Shown in pieces: positions 2,750 to 46,548 of a DNA stretch of 64,000 nucleotides. Position numbers and translations under genes: made by a program. The notes beneath the pieces were generated by a model. That model worked only from the letters and a program-made list of their open reading frames with translations, made no database searches and was not told the DNA's origin. This stretch comes from a virus: the IMG/VR virus record IMGVR_UViG_3300032308_001684, positions 1 to 64,000 of that record. One strand, given 5' to 3'. The number at the start of each line of letters is the position of its first letter. Position 1 is the stretch's first letter.

Positions 2750-3727
2750 ATGGCGTATTCAACCGGTTCAGTAATATTAGACGACGATTATAATATCTTT
2801 GCCACAGGCAACGCTGCCGGCACAGGTGACAACAACGTTGCAAACGTCAACACTGTGTGGGGCGTAGGCAACACTGACAAAGGATATGGGCAAACAACTC
2901 TTCCTGTGTTGAGTGCTGTGACCGCAGGGCAAACAGTTACCGCCACACAATGGGCTACCATGCTCAATCGTATTTCCAGTTCTGCCAGCCAGCAAGGTTC
3001 ATCAATCACTCCTATTACCAATCCAGTAGCAGGCAACACAATCAGTGCCTATGCCGCGCTGTCAACCAACATTACCACGATCTTCAACAATCGTTTGAAT
3101 TGTGCGGCTGTTGGTACATCGATCACATCAGGCGGTGCAGTGAGTCGTACCACAAGCTGGACATCCTCGGTGACATTTACACAGACCTTTACATTTGCAT
3201 CCGGTGATGCCGCACGTTATTTCTTCAATTCGGGTGGAAGAATCACGCTGAGCTACAGCCGAACAGGCGGCAGCTCCACTGATCAAAACACAGCTATCAG
3301 TAACTTGTTGACTGCTTGTGGAACTATCAATATCACAGCAGGCACAGGCACACAGACCATTGCAGGCGGAAGTTACACTGGAACAACCAAAACTGGTGGT
3401 TCAGGATCACCCACAGTGGCCACAACCACAGGCTACTATGATTTTACCACATCCAACGTGCAAGTGTTTACACAGTCGGCTAGTTCTTACTATGGATACG
3501 AAGGCAACTCATTGACTGTCAACGTACGAACCAACGGTGCACAAGGTGCCAACGGTGACACAGGTTCCGTTATTACCATTGCTTCCACAGTGGCCAAACC
3601 AGGTGGATTGACCACAGTTGATGGCACGTTGACTGCTACGAGCACTTTAGTTCCAAGTGGTACAACCTATTTGACAACTACCAGCTGGGGAACTCCTACA
3701 CTGTCAGGATCACAATCTGGATCATAA
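2750..3727 (+). CDS. Thr/Ser-rich phage structural protein (fibre-like)
   Basis: 325 aa, starting 12 nt after the previous gene. Composition is dominated by Thr, Ser, Gly, Ala and Asn, with no signal peptide or membrane segment. An internal segment around residues 135-190 (SVTFTQTF, FFNSGG, NLLTACGTINI) has the look of a beta-structured virion protein. It is the last gene before a strong terminator, so it closes the virion transcription unit. Family not recognised; structural role inferred from composition and position. Confidence 0.6.
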   Translation: MAYSTGSVILDDDYNIFATGNAAGTGDNNVANVNTVWGVGNTDKGYGQTTLPVLSAVTAGQTVTATQWATMLNRISSSASQQGSSITPITNPVAGNTISAYAALSTNITTIFNNRLNCAAVGTSITSGGAVSRTTSWTSSVTFTQTFTFASGDAARYFFNSGGRITLSYSRTGGSSTDQNTAISNLLTACGTINITAGTGTQTIAGGSYTGTTKTGGSGSPTVATTTGYYDFTTSNVQVFTQSASSYYGYEGNSLTVNVRTNGAQGANGDTGSVITIASTVAKPGGLTTVDGTLTATSTLVPSGTTYLTTTSWGTPTLSGSQSGS

Positions 3728-4932: not shown

Positions 4933-5746
4933 ACGAGGATATCTTATCATGGCCAGTAACAATGGTCGTGATGACTATGTAGCCTGTGCCAGAGCATTGG
5001 CCAAGAGTCTACGATGGTGGATGCCCGACTGCAAGATTTGTTTGGTCACAGACTCGCCAGAATCAGACCCAGTGTTTGACATTGTCAAAACATTTCCATT
5101 TGGAGATCAAGATCCCAATGGAGATTGGAAGTTAATCAATGATTGGCAAGCCTTTCATGCCAGTCCTTTTAGAGAAACCATCAAACTTGAAGCAGACATG
5201 ATCATTGTCAACGACATTTCACATTGGTGGTCATGGTTTGAACATCGCGATGTTGTGATCAGTCAAGGTATCAAAAACTATTTCAATCATGCCAGTGACT
5301 GTAGAGCGTATCGTAGATTGTTTGATGACAACGAGTTACCCGATGTGTACAATGCAATAACTTACTGGCGGTTGAGCAAAACATCAGCGGAATTTTTTCA
5401 TTTGGTGCGACAGTGTTTTGAACAATGGCCCACAGTGAGACAAACATTGAAATACTGTGATAGCTTGCCTGCCAACACTGATATGATCTACGCCATGGCA
5501 GCCAAGTACATGGGTGTTGAAAATGTAACTGTGCCCACAGCCTGGCCTACAATCACACACATGAAACCTGCTGTAAATTTTTTAAAAACTGACGCTCGTC
5601 CGTGGACCACGGAATTTGTATGGGAACTTGACAACGGGCACTTGCGTATCAACACTGTCGAACAACATGATGCAGTACATTATCATGAAAAAATCTTTGC
5701 GAAAGAACTAGAACAACACTATGACAAACTTTTGGCAAGCCGTTGA
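4916..5746 (+). CDS. Second GT-A-fold-like glycosyltransferase
   Basis: 276 aa from a GTG at 4916, overlapping the previous gene by 17 nt; an in-frame ATG at 4949 is an alternative start. Like its neighbour it has an N-terminal KICLVTDSPES segment, an EADMIIVND segment around residue 97 in place of DxD, and a Trp-rich middle. The two are probably paralogues. Likely cytoplasmic; substrate unknown. Confidence 0.6.
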   Translation: MAVLFERGYLIMASNNGRDDYVACARALAKSLRWWMPDCKICLVTDSPESDPVFDIVKTFPFGDQDPNGDWKLINDWQAFHASPFRETIKLEADMIIVNDISHWWSWFEHRDVVISQGIKNYFNHASDCRAYRRLFDDNELPDVYNAITYWRLSKTSAEFFHLVRQCFEQWPTVRQTLKYCDSLPANTDMIYAMAAKYMGVENVTVPTAWPTITHMKPAVNFLKTDARPWTTEFVWELDNGHLRINTVEQHDAVHYHEKIFAKELEQHYDKLLASR

Positions 5747-6984: not shown

Positions 6985-7964
6985 ATGTTAGAGTGATATC
7001 TAGTGATTGCAAAGTTTGGAATCGAGATCAAGTTATTGTAGAAATCGGCCATGCTATGTCTATCAATGAAGATATCACTGTGGATCTCATAAGCGAAGGT
7101 CCTTGTTTCACTTCGCTGGATCTAACCCAGTTGATTTCTCAGATGAGATCGTTGTATAATTATCAAAAAGATATATCGGTAAAAACTTGTAACCTCTCTC
7201 AACAAACATGCGACGGATTTCAATTTGATATTGAGCCTCCTATGCACTTTGTAACAAATACCAAAAATAAGTTATCGGAAAATATTCAGGTAAAACACAT
7301 CACAAAAAAGTTTGGATTGTTTGTTGGTAGAGCCAACGCACCTCGGCTTGACTTATCTAGTTATATTTGGAAAAATCACAGAGAAGATGCTGTGATGACC
7401 TATCATTTTGATATAGAGATAGATTATCACAGAAACAATATTGGATTAGACGATTTGGTTAGATGGCAAAACACCAAAGATTTACACGACGCAGTTGATT
7501 TAATAAAGTCATCGCCGTTGAAGTTTGAGGAAGTAAAATATCCTATACTCATGGATCAACACTGCAATATCAGTTGTTTGTCAAATGATTTTCTAATAGA
7601 AATAGTGTGCGAAACATATTACACTGGAAAAACTTTCTTTCCTACAGAAAAAATATGGAGGCCGATCATGTCTGGATCTCCGTTTATTGTGCAAGGACCA
7701 AAGTATTTTTTACATAAACTAAGAGACCTTGGATTCAAGACGTTTGAAAGATGGTGGGACGAAGGTTACGGCGAAGATCCAGCTGCCTGGCAAATAACAG
7801 AAATAAAAAAAGTGCTAGATTATGTTGCTTCTTTTGATTACGATACTATACAACAATGGTATCGTGAAATGACTCCGTCATTAGATCATAATCGCAAAAG
7901 ATTTTTAGAGCTAAACAAAGAGGATTTATCCTCAATCTACAAGGATTTATCAAAGTATGATTGA
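6978..7964 (+). CDS. TEK-motif glycosyltransferase (GT10/fucosyltransferase-like C-terminus)
   Basis: 328 aa. The conserved C-terminal block reads IVCETYY, then FFPTEKIWRPIMSGSPFIV (about residues 220-238), LRDLGFKTF and WWDEGYGED. The order 'ETxxx...TEKxxxPxxxxxPF...LGFxTF...DE' is shared with the genes at 10310, 12096, 22018 and 23187 and recalls the donor-binding half of GT10-type enzymes. The AT-rich coding sequence differs from the neighbouring GT-A genes. Donor unknown. Confidence 0.65.
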   Translation: MVNVRVISSDCKVWNRDQVIVEIGHAMSINEDITVDLISEGPCFTSLDLTQLISQMRSLYNYQKDISVKTCNLSQQTCDGFQFDIEPPMHFVTNTKNKLSENIQVKHITKKFGLFVGRANAPRLDLSSYIWKNHREDAVMTYHFDIEIDYHRNNIGLDDLVRWQNTKDLHDAVDLIKSSPLKFEEVKYPILMDQHCNISCLSNDFLIEIVCETYYTGKTFFPTEKIWRPIMSGSPFIVQGPKYFLHKLRDLGFKTFERWWDEGYGEDPAAWQITEIKKVLDYVASFDYDTIQQWYREMTPSLDHNRKRFLELNKEDLSSIYKDLSKYD

Positions 7965-9384
7965 TCAGAACAAAGGTGATGAAGTCTCAACAGATTTCAA
8001 ATCTAAATTTCTCAGCGATGCAGAAATAATGAAGCAACGTCTGGACTCTGTTAGTCCCAGCATGTGCTTGGCCAAATGGAAACAGGTTAGTCTACATTTG
8101 ACCACAGGCCACACAAACTCATGTTATCATCCCCCTTTACACAAAATCCGTATGGAAGATATTCAACGAGCACCGTCGGGCATTCATAACACCGAACATA
8201 AAAAACAACAGAGAAAGTTAATGTTAGAAGGCACCCGTCCGGGAGAATGTCAATACTGCTGGACCATGGAAGACAACGGCAAGCTCAGTGATCGTCATTA
8301 TCGTAGTGGCGAGCCTTGGGCCGCCAAAGATTTTACAAAGATTGTGTCAGCGCCCTGGGACCAGGATATATTACCTAGCTATGTTGAAGTAAACTTCAAC
8401 TCAGCCTGTAATCTAAAATGTAGTTATTGTAGCCCACAGTTTAGTTCTAGTTGGATGGACGAAGCCGACCGTCTAGGTGCTTTCCCTACATCAACCCCAC
8501 ACAACGACCCTGCGTATTTTACAGGCGAACGCAGACCCATTCCCAATAGAGAAGATAATCCTTATGTGGATGCTTTTTGGACTTGGTGGCCGGATCTTTA
8601 TCCAGAACTGGAACATTTCCGCATGACCGGTGGCGAGCCCTTGTTGGACAAGAATACCTATCGTGTGTTTGATTATGTGCTGGCCAATCCTAAACCAGAT
8701 CTACATTTGAATGTGACCAGTAACTTCAGCGTGGATGAAAAGTCGTGGCAAAAGTATTTGGGTTATGTCAAGCAGTTGTGTGAAGACGAAAAGATTGAAC
8801 ACTTTATGCAGTATGTCAGCCTGGATGCATGGGGTGATCAAGCAGAGTATATTCGCAACGGACTAGACTTTGAACTACTGTGGAAACGAGTCAACCAGTT
8901 CTTGACTGAAGTTCCTGGACGGTCTAGTATCACATTTATTGTTACAATGAATAATCTTTCAGTGATCAGCTTCCAGGATCTCATGATTGCTATATTAGGA
9001 CTACGACAAACATACTCGAAAACCTATCAACGTGTGTGGTTTGATACACCTGTATTGCGTACACCTTCATGGCAGAGTATGCAACTGTTGCCCGAAAGCT
9101 ATGCTGACAGGTTGGAATCTACATGGAGATGGATGATGACGAATCTTGAAACAGAACAAACACGATTTAAAGGTTTCAAAGATTACGAGCTCAGCCGTCT
9201 GGACAGAGACATTGTCTGGATGCGTGATGGTGCCAAACTAGATCCTGCCTATGTGCGTAGACAACAAGCAGATTTCTATAGATTTTTCAATGAACATGAT
9301 GGTAGACGCGGCACAGATTTTTTAAAGACTTTTCCAGAAATGGGTGAGTGGTGGGCAGGTTGCAGACACTGGAGTACACAATGA
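7957..9384 (+). CDS. Radical SAM protein with N-terminal Cys cluster (copy 1 of 5)
   Basis: 475 aa, overlapping the previous stop by 8 nt. The core [4Fe-4S]/SAM motif is CNLKCSYC (C151, C155, C158), followed by an MTGGEPLLD motif (the GGE methionine site). An N-terminal set (C37, C56, C98, C101, with CYHPP and CQYCW) precedes the core, where SPASM/twitch clusters normally follow it. It lies between a TEK glycosyltransferase and an epimerase. Substrate unknown; a sugar or peptide is possible. Confidence 0.8.
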
Positions 9385-12095: not shown

Positions 12096-13109
12096 GTGCA
12101 AATTATAATTGAACCAGGTCTAGCTCTCAACTATCTCAGGACCGACAATGATATCACTGTGGGAGGTCTTGCCACAACAGCTGACATCTATGTGATTAGT
12201 CTTAAAACACTAACACAACATTGGCCCAGGATTCATGACATACTGGAACTAGGCGGCCGTGTTATCATAGAAAAAACCGATGAAAGTGTAATAACCCAAT
12301 GGCACGTTATTCAGAATCAACGTTATCAGCCATGGATTTTGCAAGGTCGATTGAAATTCGTCACTGGCGGAGATGCACCCACCAACATTGATAATCTTAA
12401 TAGTGAACATTTTTTAGCCGCAACCATGGGCAGTCAACCCCATGGTATGCCCTTGCTAAATTACCAACCATATGCTAGACCTTATAAGTTTTTGTTTACT
12501 AACCGTAAAGTAAGACCTCACCGCAGATATCTCATACACAGATTGCATCAGGAAGGATTGCTTGCCAACTCATTATGGTGTAATCATGATGAACACACTA
12601 CCTGGTACCATTCAGATTTTAATGTTAACTATACCGATGAAAATATTCCAGTACAGCAGTTACCACAGGACTATGATCTCAAAGATCCTCCGCCCTGGGT
12701 CGATGGTGTGATAGTAAAACAACAGTTTTTGGATACATGGTTTACTTTGGTACCAGAAACTGTGTTTGAGTCGGGTGCTAGTTTTAGAACTGAAAAATTT
12801 TATAAACCAGTGCTGGCCGGTCATCCATTTGTGATCTGTGCCAATTCAGGATTTTATCGAGACTTGCACAATCTTGGATTTAGATCATTTGGCCACTTGA
12901 TTGATGAGAGCTTTGATGTTATAATAAATGGTAAAGACCGCATGGATAGATTGGTAAGCACTGTGCAATGGCTTTGTCAACAGGATCTAGCACAGTTTTG
13001 GAATGCAGCCAAGGAAGTGTGTTTATACAACCAGCATCGTGCTTTAGAGCTACATAATAGCCAGCACCATAGTTTTACACAACAGTTAAAAGAATTTACA
13101 AATGCCTAG
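12096..13109 (+). CDS. TEK-motif glycosyltransferase
   Basis: 337 aa from a GTG at 12096; the nearer ATG codons are out of frame. The C-terminal block is LVPETVFES, FRTEKFYKPVLAGHPFVIC (about 235-253), LHNLGFRSFGHL and DESFD. It overlaps the next radical SAM gene by 8 nt. It alternates with radical SAM genes, which suggests that the two families act on the same glycan or carrier. Confidence 0.65.
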   Translation: MQIIIEPGLALNYLRTDNDITVGGLATTADIYVISLKTLTQHWPRIHDILELGGRVIIEKTDESVITQWHVIQNQRYQPWILQGRLKFVTGGDAPTNIDNLNSEHFLAATMGSQPHGMPLLNYQPYARPYKFLFTNRKVRPHRRYLIHRLHQEGLLANSLWCNHDEHTTWYHSDFNVNYTDENIPVQQLPQDYDLKDPPPWVDGVIVKQQFLDTWFTLVPETVFESGASFRTEKFYKPVLAGHPFVICANSGFYRDLHNLGFRSFGHLIDESFDVIINGKDRMDRLVSTVQWLCQQDLAQFWNAAKEVCLYNQHRALELHNSQHHSFTQQLKEFTNA

Positions 13110-14460
13110 ACTAAACAACGAAACAGATCTTGAATACAAACGCAGAGTAATTGACATCAAGTCAGATTCATTCTGTGCGGCCAAATGGTACAACGCTACC
13201 ATATGGTTGGGATCAGGCATGACCACAAGCTGTCATCATCCACTGCCACACCGTGTTGAAGTAGCCGACGTTGAAGCCAATCCCAAGGCATTACACAATA
13301 CTGCTAAGAAAAAAGCAGAGCGTGAAATGATGCAACGTGGTGAACGCCCACAAGGATGTGAGTATTGTTGGAAGATTGAAGATATTGGGCGAGACAATGT
13401 ATCTGATCGAGTGTATAAAACTGTGCTGTATTTAGATGAGGATTTACAACATGCTTTTCAGACTCCAGCCAGTGAAGATGTGGATTTGCAAACACTGGAA
13501 ATTGCTTTCGATAGAACTTGTCAGTTTGCTTGTTCTTATTGCAATCCGGCATTCTCAAGCACATGGGTGCGTGATATCAAGCAACACGGAGCCTACCAAG
13601 GACTGATCAGCGATGGGCGAAATCATTTCACTCACACACACGATTCTGCACAACGCTACACCATCAATGATGTAAACCCTTATGTAGAAGCATTTTTTAA
13701 ATGGTGGGAGTCCGACCTACACCGCACACTCAAAGAACTACGCATCACTGGAGGTGAACCATTGATGTCAGGCTACACATGGCAGTTGCTGGATTGGTTC
13801 AAGGTCAACAAAGGCCGATCACAAACACGATTAGCTATAAATTCAAATCTAGGTATGAGTACCGAAGACGTGATTAAATTGCTAGACAGGGCCGACGGAG
13901 TTGAGTTGGATTTATATACATCTAATGAAAGTCTCACAAATCATGCAGAATATATTCGCGATGGTCTAGAGTGGACACAATGGATTACCAACATGCACAT
14001 GCTGGCCGGCAGTGGCAGACTTCGCGGACTACATGTAATGTGTACTGTCAACGCACTGTGCCTTGAATCATTGCCAGAGTTTTTGGATCTCATGCTGGAA
14101 TTCAAACAACAATATGGTAGAGACTTTCCAACTTTTACATTGAACATTTTGCGTTTTCCAAGTTTTCAGTCGCCATTGATATTGCCTGACAATATACGAC
14201 AAGCTCAAGGTAATAAATTACAAGCATGGTACAACGTCAACAAACACAGTGACTTATTGCATCAGATGGAACTTAATCAGGTACAGCGATTAATAGATTA
14301 TCTTGACGTGGTCAAAACACCACATTCAGACACATTTGATCGTGCAAGTTTGTACAACGATTTCAAGCAATTTCACGAACAGTACGATCAACGTCGCGGA
14401 AAAGATTTCCGCAAAACATTTCCTTCATTGGCCACATGGTATGACTCAATACAAGTATAA
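13102..14460 (+). CDS. Radical SAM protein with N-terminal Cys cluster (copy 2 of 5)
   Basis: 452 aa. Core motif CQFACSYC (C140, C144, C147) and ITGGEPLMS. The N-terminal cluster is C25, C44, C86, C89, with CHHPLP and CEYCW matching copy 1 (CYHPP, CQYCW), so copies 1 and 2 are the closest pair. It overlaps the genes on both sides by 8 and 20 nt. Substrate unknown. Confidence 0.8.
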   Translation: MPRLNNETDLEYKRRVIDIKSDSFCAAKWYNATIWLGSGMTTSCHHPLPHRVEVADVEANPKALHNTAKKKAEREMMQRGERPQGCEYCWKIEDIGRDNVSDRVYKTVLYLDEDLQHAFQTPASEDVDLQTLEIAFDRTCQFACSYCNPAFSSTWVRDIKQHGAYQGLISDGRNHFTHTHDSAQRYTINDVNPYVEAFFKWWESDLHRTLKELRITGGEPLMSGYTWQLLDWFKVNKGRSQTRLAINSNLGMSTEDVIKLLDRADGVELDLYTSNESLTNHAEYIRDGLEWTQWITNMHMLAGSGRLRGLHVMCTVNALCLESLPEFLDLMLEFKQQYGRDFPTFTLNILRFPSFQSPLILPDNIRQAQGNKLQAWYNVNKHSDLLHQMELNQVQRLIDYLDVVKTPHSDTFDRASLYNDFKQFHEQYDQRRGKDFRKTFPSLATWYDSIQV

Positions 14461-19253: not shown

Positions 19254-19351
19254 AATGGTTACGCAACTTGATCAATAGAATCAAACTTGAAATACGCTAT
19301 CGTAAAAAACTAAAAGAACTTCGTAAACGAGATCCTTTTATCTATAAATGA
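19250..19351 (+). CDS. Tiny highly basic peptide, 33 aa, coupled at both ends
   Basis: ATG at 19250 overlaps the previous stop (ATGA) and its own TGA overlaps the next ATG (ATGA). About 14 of 33 residues are Lys or Arg; it starts MKWLRNLINRIKLE and ends KRDPFIYK, which predicts an amphipathic basic helix. Coupling at both ends makes chance unlikely. It could be an RNA- or membrane-binding peptide, a carbamoyltransferase partner or a radical SAM substrate; none is shown. Confidence 0.65.
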   Translation: MKWLRNLINRIKLEIRYRKKLKELRKRDPFIYK

Positions 19352-20835
19352 AACATATCTTAGGTATTAGTGCAGGGTTCCATGATGCCGCAGTCACTGT
19401 CATTGACTCGGATGGTGAAATAGTCTTTGCTGGCCACTCAGAACGCTATAGTAAAAAGAAAAATGATGCCACTATTGCCCCAGAGTTGCTACAAGAACTC
19501 TGTCAGTGGGACTACGATACCGTAGCGTTCTACGAACGTCCATGGGTACACAATGTTCAACAGATTTACTCTGGACAACGACACTTTGGTCCTTGGACCA
19601 CCAGAGGTGCATTAAAACAACACCTTGGCTCATGGTATCAAACTCCGGCTCGCAGAGAAGTTAGTTTTAATCATCATCTAAGTCATGCGGCCGCTGGGTT
19701 TCAAACAAGTCCGTACAACAGTGCAGTGGTCGTGGTCATAGATGCCATTGGCGAACTAGATACCATAAGCATATTTCAAGCGCACTACAATAACAAAGGG
19801 CAGGCACAATATAAACGAGTTTGGCGGCAACGATATCCGCATAGCATTGGATTATTTTATAGTGCAATGACAGATCGTGTGGGTTTACGACCCATGGACG
19901 AAGAATATATTACCATGGGCATGGCCGCCTGGGGTCAGGACTCTTGGTATTCTGCGCTGTACAATCGTGTGGTCAGAGATCCAAAAAACATTGAACTAAC
20001 CGAAAACTTTCACATAGGCGTCGAATCAACGTTTTTAGAAGCAGCCACTCATGAGGATATTGCTTGCGCCGCACAGATGGTGGCCGAAGACCTCATAATG
20101 AATGTGATGAAAAAAGCTAAAGAGCTCACAGGAGAAACTAATCTTGTGTACATGGGCGGTGTTGCCCTAAATTGTTTGGCAAATAGAAACCTAGGAAATT
20201 ATTTTGATAACATTTGGATTATGCCTAATCCTGGCGATGCTGGTAGTAGTCTGGGCAGTGCGGCGCTGGCTTACGGAAAACAGATACATTGGAAAAACGC
20301 CTTTCTTGGTCACAACATTCCTGGTGCTTACCCTGTCAATGGTATTATTGACGAGCTTTTGGTCAATAAAATTGTTGGTGTGGCCAGTGGTCGTGCAGAG
20401 TTTGGTCCCCGAGCCCTGGGCAACAGAAGTCTGCTCGCAGATCCAAGAGGCTCGGAGATAAAAGATCAAGTAAATGAAATCAAACGTAGACAACAGTTTA
20501 GGCCGTTTGCTCCTGTAATACTTGAAGAATGTGTCAATGACTACTTTGAAATGCCTTCAAGTTACACATCCAGTCCGTACATGCAGGTAGTGGCACGTTG
20601 TCGACATCCTGATCAGTTTCCGGCAATCATTCACGTAGATGGTACCAGCCGTGTACAAACTGTGAGTAAAGATTGTGGATCGGGCATTCGACAACTGTTA
20701 GAGCGGTGGTATGTGGAAACAGGATGTCCTATGTTGCTCAACACCAGTCTCAACATCAGAGGTGAACCCATGGTCAACGATCGAGCGGATGCTGATCGTT
20801 TTGAACAACTGTATGGTGTAAAAGTTTGTAGTTAG
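19348..20835 (+). CDS. Carbamoyltransferase (NodU/CmcH family)
   Basis: 495 aa. The N-terminal Kae1/ASKHA-like domain starts ILGISAGFHDAA and has FNHHLSHAAAGF (metal-binding His region) and VVVIDAIGELDT. The C-terminal domain has RAEFGPRALGNRS and LLNTSLNIRGEP, hallmark blocks of NodU-type O-carbamoyltransferases that use carbamoyl phosphate and ATP. It probably carbamoylates a sugar hydroxyl on the glycan made by this operon. It is slightly shorter than typical members. Confidence 0.9.
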   Translation: MKHILGISAGFHDAAVTVIDSDGEIVFAGHSERYSKKKNDATIAPELLQELCQWDYDTVAFYERPWVHNVQQIYSGQRHFGPWTTRGALKQHLGSWYQTPARREVSFNHHLSHAAAGFQTSPYNSAVVVVIDAIGELDTISIFQAHYNNKGQAQYKRVWRQRYPHSIGLFYSAMTDRVGLRPMDEEYITMGMAAWGQDSWYSALYNRVVRDPKNIELTENFHIGVESTFLEAATHEDIACAAQMVAEDLIMNVMKKAKELTGETNLVYMGGVALNCLANRNLGNYFDNIWIMPNPGDAGSSLGSAALAYGKQIHWKNAFLGHNIPGAYPVNGIIDELLVNKIVGVASGRAEFGPRALGNRSLLADPRGSEIKDQVNEIKRRQQFRPFAPVILEECVNDYFEMPSSYTSSPYMQVVARCRHPDQFPAIIHVDGTSRVQTVSKDCGSGIRQLLERWYVETGCPMLLNTSLNIRGEPMVNDRADADRFEQLYGVKVCS

Positions 20836-29705: not shown

Positions 29706-30369
29706 CGGCTGCCTTTGATTTAGCAGGACGACCACGTTTGGGCTCAGTGGCAACTGGTGTACCAACAAGCGCAGACGCTTCTTTCATAATTCTGGCACTC
29801 TCGGCCAATAGACCCTTGGCTTCGTTTTCCATCTTGACAGCTTGTTGACGTAAGTTTTCAGCCAATGCAACATCATCTAACACTTGATTGCTACCTGCCA
29901 AATTGGTACGTGCAGTAGGAGGAGCTTGTAGTTCACGACCATAATCATCGCGGCGTGATGCTTTGCCTGTGTAACCTGAGTTGGCATCAAGTTCTGCCAA
30001 CTTGTTAATAGCCTGCTGACCAGTTTTCATTTCTCTCAGTATGTTGTTGAGTTCACTGAGTCTGACGGTAGCAGTGGGTGTGGGTGTGACCAAGATCTGT
30101 TCAGTTTGAACTTTTTTGATCATTCCTTCGGCATGCAATGCTGTGAGCATGGGACGACCATCTGGAAACAACTTGCTATGGATAGCATCGGCCAACTGTT
30201 CAGCCTGTTGTGCTTCTGGCGTTTCAATGGCCTTGATAATGGCATCGTGCATGTGAGTGGGCATGATGTCTGGATATACTACCAGACACATATGGTCTTC
30301 ACCGGGTACTTCTCTAAATAATACAGCAACCTTGCGGTCGCCTTGTTTGCCTACGTGTTTGATAAACAT
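29689..30369 (-). CDS. Conserved T4-like phage protein, 226 aa
   Basis: Start taken at the ATG at 30369, preceded by AAGGAG 10 nt upstream; the longer frame from 30465 lacks a site and overlaps the next gene. N-terminus MFIKHVGKQGDRKVAVLFRE, then PTHMHDAI and LHAEGMIKK segments, a coiled-coil-like region (~165-205) and a basic tail KRGRPAKSK. I recall it as a conserved hypothetical of marine T4-like phages; the tail suggests nucleic-acid contact. Confidence 0.7.
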   Translation of the reverse strand: MFIKHVGKQGDRKVAVLFREVPGEDHMCLVVYPDIMPTHMHDAIIKAIETPEAQQAEQLADAIHSKLFPDGRPMLTALHAEGMIKKVQTEQILVTPTPTATVRLSELNNILREMKTGQQAINKLAELDANSGYTGKASRRDDYGRELQAPPTARTNLAGSNQVLDDVALAENLRQQAVKMENEAKGLLAESARIMKEASALVGTPVATEPKRGRPAKSKAADATQA

Positions 30370-43691: not shown

Positions 43692-43919
43692 CTATGATTT
43701 ACGAGATTTTTTATCAACGTATTGGCTCTTGTAGAGATAGTCGCGGCCAATATGACCTTGTTCAACTTCTCTAATGGCCTTGACCACGGTGGTGTCATCT
43801 GTTGTGATATGAGGAGCATAGCCGTTGGACAACTCACGAGCTCGACGACTAGCGATCAACACTAGATCATAACGATTACCTACTTGTTCTACTGCTTTTT
43901 CTGATGTGATTCTTGCCAT
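43692..43919 (-). CDS. rpoZ: RNA polymerase omega subunit-like protein
   Basis: 75 aa. MARITSEKAVEQVGNRYDLV and LIASRRARELSNG match the conserved N-terminal half of bacterial omega (MARxT...NRFxLVLxAxRRAR). TTVVKAIREVEQG follows the family pattern of T-V-x-A-L-R-E-I-x-x-G. The C-terminus is short and basic. AAGGAG lies 7 nt before the ATG. It could replace host omega in RNA polymerase and so alter promoter choice. Confidence 0.85.
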   Translation of the reverse strand: MARITSEKAVEQVGNRYDLVLIASRRARELSNGYAPHITTDDTTVVKAIREVEQGHIGRDYLYKSQYVDKKSRKS

Positions 43920-43924
43920 GCTAT

Positions 43925-44293
43925 TCTCCTTGGTTATTAAAATGCTCTGCGACCCTCGGCGGTATAAAAATTAGCGACCTGGTTGGATTTTGTATCTACC
44001 TTCCACCCATCGGCTTCCGGTCCCTCAGTAGGTCAATCAAAGGCTAAAATTTACCCGCTTCCCGACGGGGCCCGTTCTCGCATTGCCAGCGGCCTTTCGG
44101 TTGGAAGACTACCACCCGTGGTTGCTACACCACTTCTTGTCATCTGGGTCAGACTAGCTGTTGCTACACAGCACGTAAAGTAGCTCAGGCGGCGCTTGAA
44201 TCCACGGTAGCCCTACTCTTCATGGCCGGTCCTTGTACATGGTCGACATTGACAAGTATTTCGGTGTTCCACTGTAGCTACTACCTGAGCAAA
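43925..44293 (-). ncRNA. Gene-free block, candidate large structured RNA (3' block)
   Basis: 370 nt with no credible ORF between tRNA-Gly and rpoZ. Two hairpins have different stems but an identical six-base loop: 44118-44133 (GTGGT/ACCAC) and 44157-44172 (GCTGT/ACAGC), both with loop GTAGCA on the - strand. GCTAC segments elsewhere in the block could pair with these loops. Strand is inferred from the flanking tRNAs and promoter. Location beside tRNAs recalls GOLLD and ROOL RNAs of phages. Confidence 0.5.
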
Positions 44294-44295
44294 CT

Positions 44296-44369
44296 TGGAG
44301 CAGGGTAAGAGAATCGAACTCTCCGCATCAGCTTGGAAGGCTGAGGTATTACCACTATACGAACCCTGC
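44296..44369 (-). tRNA. tRNA-Gly(TCC)
   Basis: Acceptor GCAGGGT/ACCCTGC, anticodon loop CTTCCAA, T arm with TTCGATT, CCA encoded. It is embedded between two structured gene-free blocks. Confidence 0.9.
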
Positions 44370-44375
44370 ACTGCT

Positions 44376-44449
44376 TGGTTGCGGAGGAGGGAATCGAACC
44401 CCCAACACCAGCTTATGAGACTGGTAAGATACCGTTTCTATACTCCGCG
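44376..44449 (-). tRNA. tRNA-Met(CAT), initiator-like (C1-A72 mismatch)
   Basis: Acceptor CGCGGAG/CTCCGCA leaves C1 opposite A72, the hallmark of bacterial initiator tRNA. Anticodon loop CTCATAA. CCA encoded after A73. The three G-C pairs normally at 29-31/39-41 are not present (stem CCAGT/GCTGG), so initiator function is uncertain. Confidence 0.75.
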
Positions 44450-44450
44450 A

Positions 44451-45037
44451 TATTAGTTCCGCTTACGATTATGCGGAGTCTGTGTTGATGCTCAGTGACC
44501 TGCGATGCAGAGGACCAGCTGTTCAGGCCAATCATACAGAGCACAGAGTGTAGCCCAGACCGATTTGGGTTGCGAGAGGCTAGAAAACTACCGTATACTC
44601 GGATCGATCTAGCGTCGCTAAACATAGCAGTGAGTGGCCCGGGCTTGTGTAGCGCCTGGAATATAGTATGCATCACTGTGTGTCTATGTTGAAATAGTAA
44701 ATGGCACCATCACGTGTTTAAGGTCCAGACATTTTGTCCAGGGTTCCAGCCTGGTGCCCAGTCCCCCTTGGCATGCTGATCTCGTAGCCAACGAGTACGT
44801 CTCAAATTGAGTTGCAGGAGCCCAGGGTGGTGATCTCCCCTGATGGTTGGGATATTGCTGGCGAAGCATTCTTTCGCTCACACCATTTACCATATGTAAG
44901 TGCTGAGAAATACCAATTTAGGCGTCCGGCGCTAACCGTGCCACAGCCGAGGTCTGTTGTGTCAGGACCCGTCCCCGGCCGGGAGGGCCCGAATAGTGTA
45001 CACGTCTGCACACGATACCAGTATCAGCACTTACATA
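44451..45037 (-). ncRNA. Gene-free block, candidate giant struct RNA (GOLLD/ROOL-like)
   Basis: 587 nt without a credible ORF between tRNA-Met and tRNA-Glu. An 18-bp perfect inverted repeat (44889-44906 with 45024-45041) closes a ~117-nt domain; its outer arm overlaps the CCA end of tRNA-Glu. More pairing is visible (for example ACATAG/CTATGT near 44620 and 44685). It follows a strong promoter at 45147 through tRNA-Glu. Size and site match ROOL/GOLLD RNAs, but I cannot confirm their consensus. Confidence 0.55.
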
Positions 45038-45112
45038 TGGTACACGGTAGGGGAATCGAACCCCTCTTCCTGCCGTGAAAGGGCAGTGTCCTAACCGATA
45101 GACGAACCGTGC
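45038..45112 (-). tRNA. tRNA-Glu(TTC)
   Basis: Acceptor GCACGGT/ACCGTGT, anticodon loop CTTTCAC, T arm TTCGATT, CCA encoded. First element after the promoter at 45147. Confidence 0.9.
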
Positions 45113-45146
45113 ATCGAATCAATAGATTGTTAATGAGCAAGTATGT

Positions 45147-45175
45147 ATTATAATATATTTTGAGTTGCGTGTCAA
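45147..45175 (-). promoter_or_regulatory. Sigma70 promoter TTGACA-17-TATAAT for tRNA-Glu and RNA block
   Basis: TTGACA is a perfect -35 (45175-45170); 17-nt spacer; TATAAT (45152-45147), about 35 nt before tRNA-Glu. The strongest-looking promoter in the window. Confidence 0.85.
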
Positions 45176-45177
45176 CC

Positions 45178-45185
45178 TGTAAATA
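45178..45185 (+). promoter_or_regulatory. T4-late-like box TGTAAATA, 5 nt before ATG
   Basis: TGTAAATA then GATTC then ATG at 45191. It lies back to back with the - strand promoter at 45147-45175. Confidence 0.55.
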
Positions 45186-45190
45186 GATTC

Positions 45191-46090
45191 ATGCACAAAC
45201 TTTTTATAGCTACCTATTCTGGAGATCTTGCCCAGTTTGAACTGTGTTGCCATTGCATTAACAAAAACTGGAAAGGCAATCGATTCATCACAATATCCTG
45301 GGGACAACCAAATCCCTTGCAACAGGGTCAGATTTTTAATATAGAATCACTCACTAGTCTGGTAACAGACATTTTTGACAGCGACTGGCAGATAGAAATA
45401 GTAGATGGCGCTGTGCCAGGAATGTCAGGCTACTGTGAACAACAGGTCAACAAAGTTAGATTTTCTATTGATCCTAGGTTTCAAGATACCATAGTGTTTG
45501 ACTGTAAAGATTTTTTACTCAAACCTACGGGCATTGATTTTTTCAAACCCAACGGTGTTTATCGTGTGGCATATTTTAAAAATGGCAACACATTTAAAGA
45601 ACAATACATATCTGCATTGGACATCATTGATCAGGTACCCAACAATGTTCCTACACCTTTTAACACTACTCCTTGGATATGGGCCGGCGGAGAGCTTGAA
45701 AAGTTTTGGTCTTACATGCAATCAAGATTTGGCCCATATCAATCCTGGAGAACTTTTCCTGGTGCAACAGAATGGTCAAACTTTTATATCTTCAACTACT
45801 GCGACCCAGAGTCAATGATGCCCATGACTAGTGCCGAATACGAGTTTGTTAACTTTTGTGGTGTATGGCAAACTCTCAGCCTTGAAGATATACAGCAACA
45901 AATCGTTGATTTTGATGTCTGGGATTCTATGCGCATATGGAAACATACCAGAAAAGATTCTACTCTCCAAAAGGTCGAGCTCACAGAGCAGGTACTTAAA
46001 AAATATGGAATAGAACAATCAGTGATTGATCAATGGAAACAACAACATCTTGCTGAAATCTTGCAGTCTGATTATTCTAAAGAATTTTGA
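45191..46090 (+). CDS. Unknown protein inserted between tRNA-Glu and tmRNA, GT-like
   Basis: 299 aa, the only + gene in the RNA array. FDCKDFLLKP near residue 102 and a Trp-rich middle (TTPWIWAGGELEKFWSYMQ) recall GT-A-like proteins such as DUF6492, but this is tentative. No signal peptide. A late-type box precedes it and its stop lies at the edge of the tmRNA coding piece. It is AT-richer than the adjacent tRNAs. Confidence 0.55.
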   Translation: MHKLFIATYSGDLAQFELCCHCINKNWKGNRFITISWGQPNPLQQGQIFNIESLTSLVTDIFDSDWQIEIVDGAVPGMSGYCEQQVNKVRFSIDPRFQDTIVFDCKDFLLKPTGIDFFKPNGVYRVAYFKNGNTFKEQYISALDIIDQVPNNVPTPFNTTPWIWAGGELEKFWSYMQSRFGPYQSWRTFPGATEWSNFYIFNYCDPESMMPMTSAEYEFVNFCGVWQTLSLEDIQQQIVDFDVWDSMRIWKHTRKDSTLQKVELTEQVLKKYGIEQSVIDQWKQQHLAEILQSDYSKEF

Positions 46091-46276
46091 CCGGGTATTC
46101 TGTTACGAGGAACCCGGCAAACCCTAGGTTACCTTAGATCAGGCAGCCAATGCGTAAACTTCATCGTTTGCGTTTACTTTGATTTGCTTCTACGACCAGG
46201 TTACCCCAATCCTACGGGTTCTGCTTTCCCGTGTTGCCGTCTTTTCTAGCTCGCCATGTCGAAACCGGTCGAGCCC
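46091..46276 (-). ncRNA. ssrA: Permuted tmRNA, coding piece with tag ANDEVYALAA
   Basis: The 5' end GGGCTCG (from 46276) pairs with CGGGTCC of the acceptor piece in a 7-bp acceptor stem with G-U pairs, followed by GACCGGTTTCGAC as in tmRNA 5' ends. The tag frame runs 46171-46139: GCA resume codon, then ANDEVYALAA and TGA. The 3' end is set at a hairpin (46091-46117) and is approximate. It rescues stalled ribosomes and tags nascent proteins for proteolysis. Confidence 0.9.
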
Positions 46277-46277
46277 A

Positions 46278-46349
46278 TCATAAAAAGACATGTATGCAAA
46301 CAAACGCAATCAACAGTATGACTACTATAGTGTACGATGTGTTAACCAT
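46278..46349 (-). CDS. 23-aa hydrophobic peptide ORF in the tmRNA intervening segment
   Basis: AAGGAG with a 5-nt gap precedes the ATG at 46349. The product MVNTSYTIVVILLIAFVCIH plus VFL is one transmembrane segment, and its TGA ends 1 nt before the 5' end of the tmRNA coding piece. It fills nearly all of the 84-nt segment that is cut out during tmRNA maturation. It could be a toxin-like or holin-like peptide or chance; the perfect SD favours a real gene. Confidence 0.5.
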   Translation of the reverse strand: MVNTSYTIVVILLIAFVCIHVFL

Positions 46350-46360
46350 ATATCTCCTTA

Positions 46361-46548
46361 TGGTGGACCCGGGGAGAATCGAACTCCCGTCCACAGCGCC
46401 TTCAAATTGAAGGATATACAACAATTCTTTCACGAGACTATCAGGACTTGAAGGCCCTCGCGTGGCCTAGGGACTCACACCCTATCAACATTCCAGCAGA
46501 TAAATCAGCGCCACTGGGTGTATACTCCTGCTAGTTGTTTACTTATCA
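46361..46548 (-). ncRNA. ssrA: Permuted tmRNA, acceptor piece
   Basis: Ends in a tRNA-like half: T stem GGGAG/CTCCC with loop TTCGATT, 3' acceptor strand CGGGTCC, discriminator A and encoded CCA (46363-46361). Upstream segments resemble the pseudoknot region of bacterial tmRNA. It is transcribed before the coding piece, so the gene is circularly permuted. The 5' limit is approximate. Confidence 0.85.

Follow-up and report, generated by a model that had tools for sequence, protein, structure and literature searches.

Introduction

Several structured phage RNAs of unexplained role, including GOLLD, ROOL and the RNAs C and D of phage T4, have long been a puzzle, and GOLLD is known to assemble into an RNA nanocage. 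The put antiterminators of phage HK022 bind the zinc-binding domain of the RNA polymerase β′ subunit and suppress termination in cis, while read-through of rrn-type antiterminated units depends on NusB/S10. GOLLD is composed of a variable 5′ part and a conserved 3′ part (PMC12286853), and the put RNA is a phage-borne element of ~70 nt with two adjacent stem-loops that acts in cis at varied distances from its promoter (PMC9378689).

The stretch of DNA considered here (the window) comprises positions 1–64000 of a 95,848-base virus record, in which 28 tRNAs and a permuted tmRNA were found. A preliminary description of the window singled out a region between two minus-strand tRNA genes, tRNA-Glu and tRNA-Met, as a candidate giant RNA of the GOLLD or ROOL kind, lying behind the window's best promoter and closed by an 18-bp stem. 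This region, 44451–45041, is referred to below as block B, and its features are collected in Table 1.

Table 1. Features of the block B locus, in window coordinates
Feature	Position	Strand	Remarks
Sigma-70 consensus promoter, TTGACA-17-TATAAT	45147..45175	−	12/12 matches
boxA-like antitermination element, TGCTCATTAACAA	45127..45139	−	between promoter and tRNA-Glu
tRNA-Glu(UUC)	45038..45112	−	ARAGORN and Rfam
Long hairpin from the tRNA CCA	44889..45041	−	stem of 18 bp enclosing a hypervariable 117-nt loop; probably a processing stem
Middle domain of the large RNA	44567..44888	−	~320 nt, alignable in relatives
Compact 3′ RNA motif (model R1)	44456..44566	−	75.7 bits; window among R1's own sequences
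Motif P1	44555-44560/44478-44484	−	bulged A44483
Motif P2	44552-44554/44490-44492	−	extended by variable arm
Motif AUCAA bulge	44485-44489	−	
Motif P3 hairpin	44458-44477	−	loop AUAAUCGUAA
tRNA-Met(CAU)	44376..44449	−	6 nt past compact motif
tRNA-Gly(UCC)	44296..44369	−	
Block A, second conserved structured RNA	43935..44180	−	between tRNA-Gly and omega-like gene
RNA polymerase omega-like protein (Rpb6/omega family)	43692..43919	−	Pfam PF01192, E 3.9e-14

Organization of the Locus

No credible gene was found in block B, in agreement with the earlier remark that no ORF fits there. Its ORFs reach at most 88 aa and have no Pfam or PHROG match, and a protein-coding explanation was rejected on these grounds; the convincing protein match that, according to the preliminary description, would speak against an RNA did not emerge. 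The minus strand of the block folds at −203 kcal/mol (z = −3.0, with none of 100 shuffles as good), and the plus strand is marginal relative to its shuffles (z = −1.6).

The promoter upstream of tRNA-Glu is directed into block B and, matching at all 12 positions, is not just the best in the window but the best possible sigma-70 match. Promoter-like sequence also occurs at the equivalent position in four relatives (L003, L030, L032 and L056), which carry boxA matches at a fixed offset, scoring 9, 11, 11 and 11 of 13, respectively. A boxA score of at least 11 was reached by 7 of 2000 random 85-nt stretches. The window's own element agrees with the rrn boxA string used at 12 of 13 positions, although by itself such a match is at chance level, with three sites (two mismatches or fewer) in 64 kb versus 2.5 expected; the boxA evidence counts because the position is fixed across relatives. 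The resulting arrangement resembles an rrn operon leader, with boxA between a strong promoter and a long untranslated RNA amid tRNAs, together with a processing-like stem, but the RNAs of the window are phage-encoded and are not rRNA.

Beyond tRNA-Met and tRNA-Gly lies block A, where double changes were observed in 17 of 48 consensus pairs (six sequences) and for which Rfam holds no match. Among the loci searched, a model of its 5′ part (R2) was found in the clade of the window phage only. The window copy has an extra insert of ~110 nt at about 44185–44295. The next gene downstream of block A, directly past the RNA genes, is that of the omega-like protein. Elsewhere in the window, the same phage carries a permuted, beta-type tmRNA with the tag ANDEVYALAA (46048–46465, minus strand), two radical-SAM proteins and a Nol-like carbamoyltransferase (7957–9384, 13102–14460 and 19348–20835).

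The Long Hairpin at the tRNA-Glu CCA End

The 18-bp perfect inverted repeat of the preliminary description is real (44889–44906/45024–45041). It forms part of a 25-nt repeat at 92% and has, by our own estimate, a chance expectation of about 3e-6 in 590 nt. Its outer end does cover the CCA of tRNA-Glu, as had been stated. It is not, however, the closing stem of the 590-nt block: it encloses 117 nt in the quarter proximal to tRNA-Glu and leaves ~430 nt outside, and the RNA of L056 is present without any long stem.

Comparison of the window with L013/L003, L017/L032 and L021/L030 revealed that 17–18 pairs are kept while most of the stem sequence has been replaced. The hairpin is an optional part of the RNA whose sequence is almost fully replaced between relatives with pairing retained, and it is probably a processing stem. 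The proposed coupling of RNA folding to tRNA processing is plausible, because four relatives have a stem that starts at the CCA and comparable hairpins occur elsewhere. Such hairpins, of 16–21 bp, follow tRNAs in L043 (8003 and 6679, both minus strand) and L048 (10709 and 4760, both minus strand), and some of them directly precede a permuted tmRNA. The intervening segment of the permuted tmRNA of L056 also resembles a long CCA-hairpin.

Relatives and the Middle Domain

The relative L003 was found by tblastn with a neighbouring 299-aa ORF, and its flanks are about 77–80% identical to those of the window. Its interval from tRNA-Glu to tRNA-Gly is short and keeps an 18-bp CCA hairpin of different stem sequence, with a perfectly conserved 29-mer at the far end. 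Scanning for a 22-mer taken from within this 29-mer located the whole block in the huge-phage contigs L018/L030 (316 kb), L019/L031 (105 kb) and L017/L032 (344 kb), while L012/L034 and L016/L033 contain a part; the block is present in L056 without the long hairpin. Synteny around it is conserved in L030/L031, L032, L034 and L056.

The middle domain is common to five phage lineages, on contigs of up to 344 kb, and could be aligned in L030/L031, L032, L034 (part) and L056. An alignment of the middle domain plus the 3′ module (A2; five sequences, one of them partial) gave a consensus fold in which 14 of 87 predicted pairs have double compensatory changes, evidence that is supportive rather than conclusive for the structure of the middle domain. 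L003 itself (5022–5172, minus strand) is a natural deletion derivative of block B, in which the long hairpin and the 3′ terminal hairpin are retained. Since it has lost most of the middle domain and the 5′ half of the motif described below, the block and the motif appear to be dispensable in at least one relative.

A Compact, Covarying 3′ Motif

The most striking part of block B is the compact motif at its 3′ end, which the preliminary description missed. An 18-mer from the 3′ hairpin matched 31 viral contigs, most of them unrelated to the window phage, and 36 distinct viral sequences were aligned (A1). The motif measures 57–115 nt and begins with AAUCG, followed by a 6-bp P1 with a single bulged A and by the 5-nt AUCAA bulge. 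It ends with a 3-bp P2, usually bearing a variable arm, and immediately thereafter a 5-bp P3 capped by the loop AUAAUCGUAA.

Compensatory change is pervasive in this alignment. Standard pairs occupy 97.2% of cells, 12 of the 14 pairs have double changes, and the covariation score is 0.551, versus 0.163 for shuffled and no more than 0.071 for slid partners. The eight top-scoring pairs by mutual information, computed with no structure supplied, are all helix pairs. Among them is pair 12–88, which played no role in selecting the sequences; extraction favoured UCG and P1 pairing. A looser pattern, which put no constraint on the P1 and P3 stems, also recovered members with P3 changed on both sides. 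The motif has many conserved unpaired bases, and the invariance of its loop and CAUCAA letters is partly ascertainment, as both were in the search patterns. The case for the motif rests on covariation because folding energy by itself gives an unimpressive z-score for five of six members. On this comparative evidence, the motif is an independent phage RNA module that also occurs alone.

The distribution of the motif points to phages. Of 25 viral records searched with model R1, 24 each yielded a single strong match and that of L003 yielded a degenerate copy, a figure that gives copy number and not prevalence, as all 25 were reached through loci already holding motif letters. The first exact pattern had no matches in bacterial genomes, and R1 did not match any of 274 bacterial genomes, all from one class. 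Essentially the same looser pattern, run on bacterial genomes as a control for the selection biases noted above, picked out 45 stretches, and in no case were P1 and P3 both present. BLAST searches of INPHARED with block B, block A and the motif, and of plasmids with a 48-nt motif query, returned chance-level matches only. One match in Agrobacterium phage Atu_ph07 was rejected, as it lies within a coding gene and scores 5.8 bits with R1.

The genomic surroundings of the motif are varied. It sits 1–7 nt from tRNAs in L054, L063, L067, L030, L032 and the window: 1 nt after and 4 nt before tRNA-Ser in L054, 1 nt away in L063 and 3 nt in L067. Many other copies are flanked by protein genes and not by tRNAs, a few nt past stop codons or a short way ahead of a start with a Shine–Dalgarno sequence. 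The closest downstream ORF is on the strand of the motif in 24 of 32 cases (p = 0.007). Immediately ahead of the motif there is no enrichment of sigma-70 promoters: 2 of 31 copies have at least nine matches, about the chance level. Directly ahead of the motif, tRNA-like RNAs ending in CCACCA were noted in L035 (1703–1830, minus strand) and L062 (3000–3082, plus strand), neither of which ARAGORN calls as a tRNA. Others, ending in CAACG(A) and having a long closing stem, occupy the same place in L039, L040, L051 and L052.

Comparison with Known RNAs

A scan of 43900–45200 against Rfam 15, with a cut-off of E = 10, gave no match to block B or the motif, and a literature search for the loop AUAAUCGUAA found none, though a description in a subscription journal or preprint is possible. 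The motif family is new relative to Rfam; large and small phage non-coding RNAs as a kind are already known. Judged by sequence and covariance searches, the block B family is distinct from the known phage RNAs with which it was compared.

Block B has much in common with GOLLD (RF02032): it is phage-encoded, large and structured, lies in a tRNA array, and has a variable 5′ and a conserved 3′ part. It nevertheless lacks any sequence or covariance match, and its 3′ module is ~110 nt long, versus the 416 positions of the GOLLD model. This model had no match at gathering or at E ≤ 10 over 43900–45200 and none in the 95.8-kb record, and that of ROOL (RF03087), a large RNA likewise found near phage tRNA islands, had no match in any record tested. 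The membership suggested in the preliminary description was thus not borne out, and neither was its global closing stem. Its idea of a large structured RNA beside tRNAs did stand, with strong conservation and, in the covariation analysis of relatives for which it had called, strong compensatory changes. Two records that bear the motif, G006 and G024, also hold a true GOLLD as a separate RNA. The huge phage of L032, which has the full block B, also carries a GOLLD with a tRNA-Arg inside it (3121–3581, plus strand; tRNA-Arg at 3184–3257).

Among smaller RNAs, the motif shares with putL and putR of HK022 a phage-borne character, a comparable size (57–115 nt versus ~70 nt) and two adjacent stem-loops with bulges (here P1/P2 and P3), but it is not promoter-proximal. 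Homology to put was rejected, because R1, run on HK022 with filters off, gave at best 14 bits at 30043–30102, outside the expected put positions. The rnaC and rnaD of T4 are likewise small and stable, immediately adjoin phage tRNAs and have an unexplained role; they were rejected as homologues, with R1 reaching no more than 7.3 bits in the T4 tRNA region (68000–75000). Membership among the known small self-cleaving ribozymes of Rfam was rejected as well, as covariance scans at E ≤ 10 of the window region and of L042 (4500–5000) were empty.

Possible Functions

It is established that block B is a conserved, structured minus-strand sequence behind a promoter and boxA, and it is very probably a real, transcribed, structured non-coding RNA of a family absent from Rfam. 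A single minus-strand precursor could run through tRNA-Glu, block B, tRNA-Met, tRNA-Gly, block A and rpoZ, with boxA allowing RNA polymerase to cross the long untranslated stretch. The hairpin at the CCA end would then act as a cleavage stem, of the RNase III type, that parts block B from tRNA-Glu. On the other side, a cut by RNase P at tRNA-Met would release a discrete RNA of roughly 430–590 nt.

Two quite different accounts of the block can be largely set aside. That it is a divergent GOLLD or ROOL RNA is suggested by its tRNA-adjacent position in a phage and its variable 5′ and conserved 3′ parts (PMC12286853), but the empty searches, and the occurrence of GOLLD in other motif-bearing records as a separate RNA, largely refute this. 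It is also highly improbable that the repeat and the conservation reflect a DNA element, such as an origin, an attachment site or a mobile hairpin. Template switching can indeed create long perfect inverted repeats, yet the promoter, boxA and tRNA context share one strand, the motif is single-copy per contig and mostly on the strand of the downstream gene, and a few G-U cells occur within its covarying helices.

As for the motif itself, the evidence is not decisive among four readings. The favoured one, held tentatively, is that the 3′ module is a stable, phage-encoded RNA acting in trans, perhaps by binding a protein or as a decoy, with the AUCAA bulge and the AUAAUCGUAA loop as points of contact. 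Where the motif is squeezed between tRNAs, as in some phages, tRNA processing would free it; the many copies between protein genes are more in line with a cis element than with a free RNA. Ranked next, and rather doubtful, is a cis-acting antiterminator or antipause RNA that binds host RNA polymerase during transcription in the manner of put. The resemblance in size and in the bulged pair of stem-loops (PMC9378689) argues for it, an operon element of general use would be consistent with the varied downstream genes and the same-strand bias, and the window operon carries boxA too. On the other hand, the lack of promoter enrichment, the failure of R1 to find putL or putR, and the mid-array position between tRNAs in some phages all count against it. 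It is unlikely that the motif serves as processing punctuation that parts neighbours in polycistronic transcripts, whether by cleaving itself or by being cut by a nuclease of the phage or its host. It does often begin 0–4 nt past a tRNA CCA or stop codon and end just ahead of the next gene or RNA, and it is compact with many conserved unpaired bases, like small ribozymes, but a single strong copy per contig is at odds with the dozens of junctions in a tRNA array, and no Rfam ribozyme matched. Least probable of the four is a metabolite-sensing riboswitch of the next gene: in several phages the motif is followed, after 9–23 nt, by a start codon that has a Shine–Dalgarno sequence, but the downstream genes look mutually unrelated, and many copies precede tRNAs or no gene at all.

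It is a real possibility, if short of an even chance, that the motif represents a type of phage RNA not described before and with a biochemically new role, for instance as an RNA that acts directly on the RNA polymerase or the ribosomes of the host, or as a small ribozyme of a new kind. On this reading, many uncultivated phages carry it in one copy, and huge phages have elaborated it into a multi-domain RNA of ~500 nt within an rrn-like operon. The finding adds a family absent from Rfam to structured phage RNAs such as GOLLD, ROOL and T4 RNA C/D, and its minimal version, 57–75 nt with strong covariation, is small enough for synthesis, probing and direct assay. Its restriction to phages, in a single copy per genome, points to some general role during infection, and the rrn-like layout of promoter, boxA, tRNA and RNA offers a testable picture of how long stable RNAs may be produced in huge phages.
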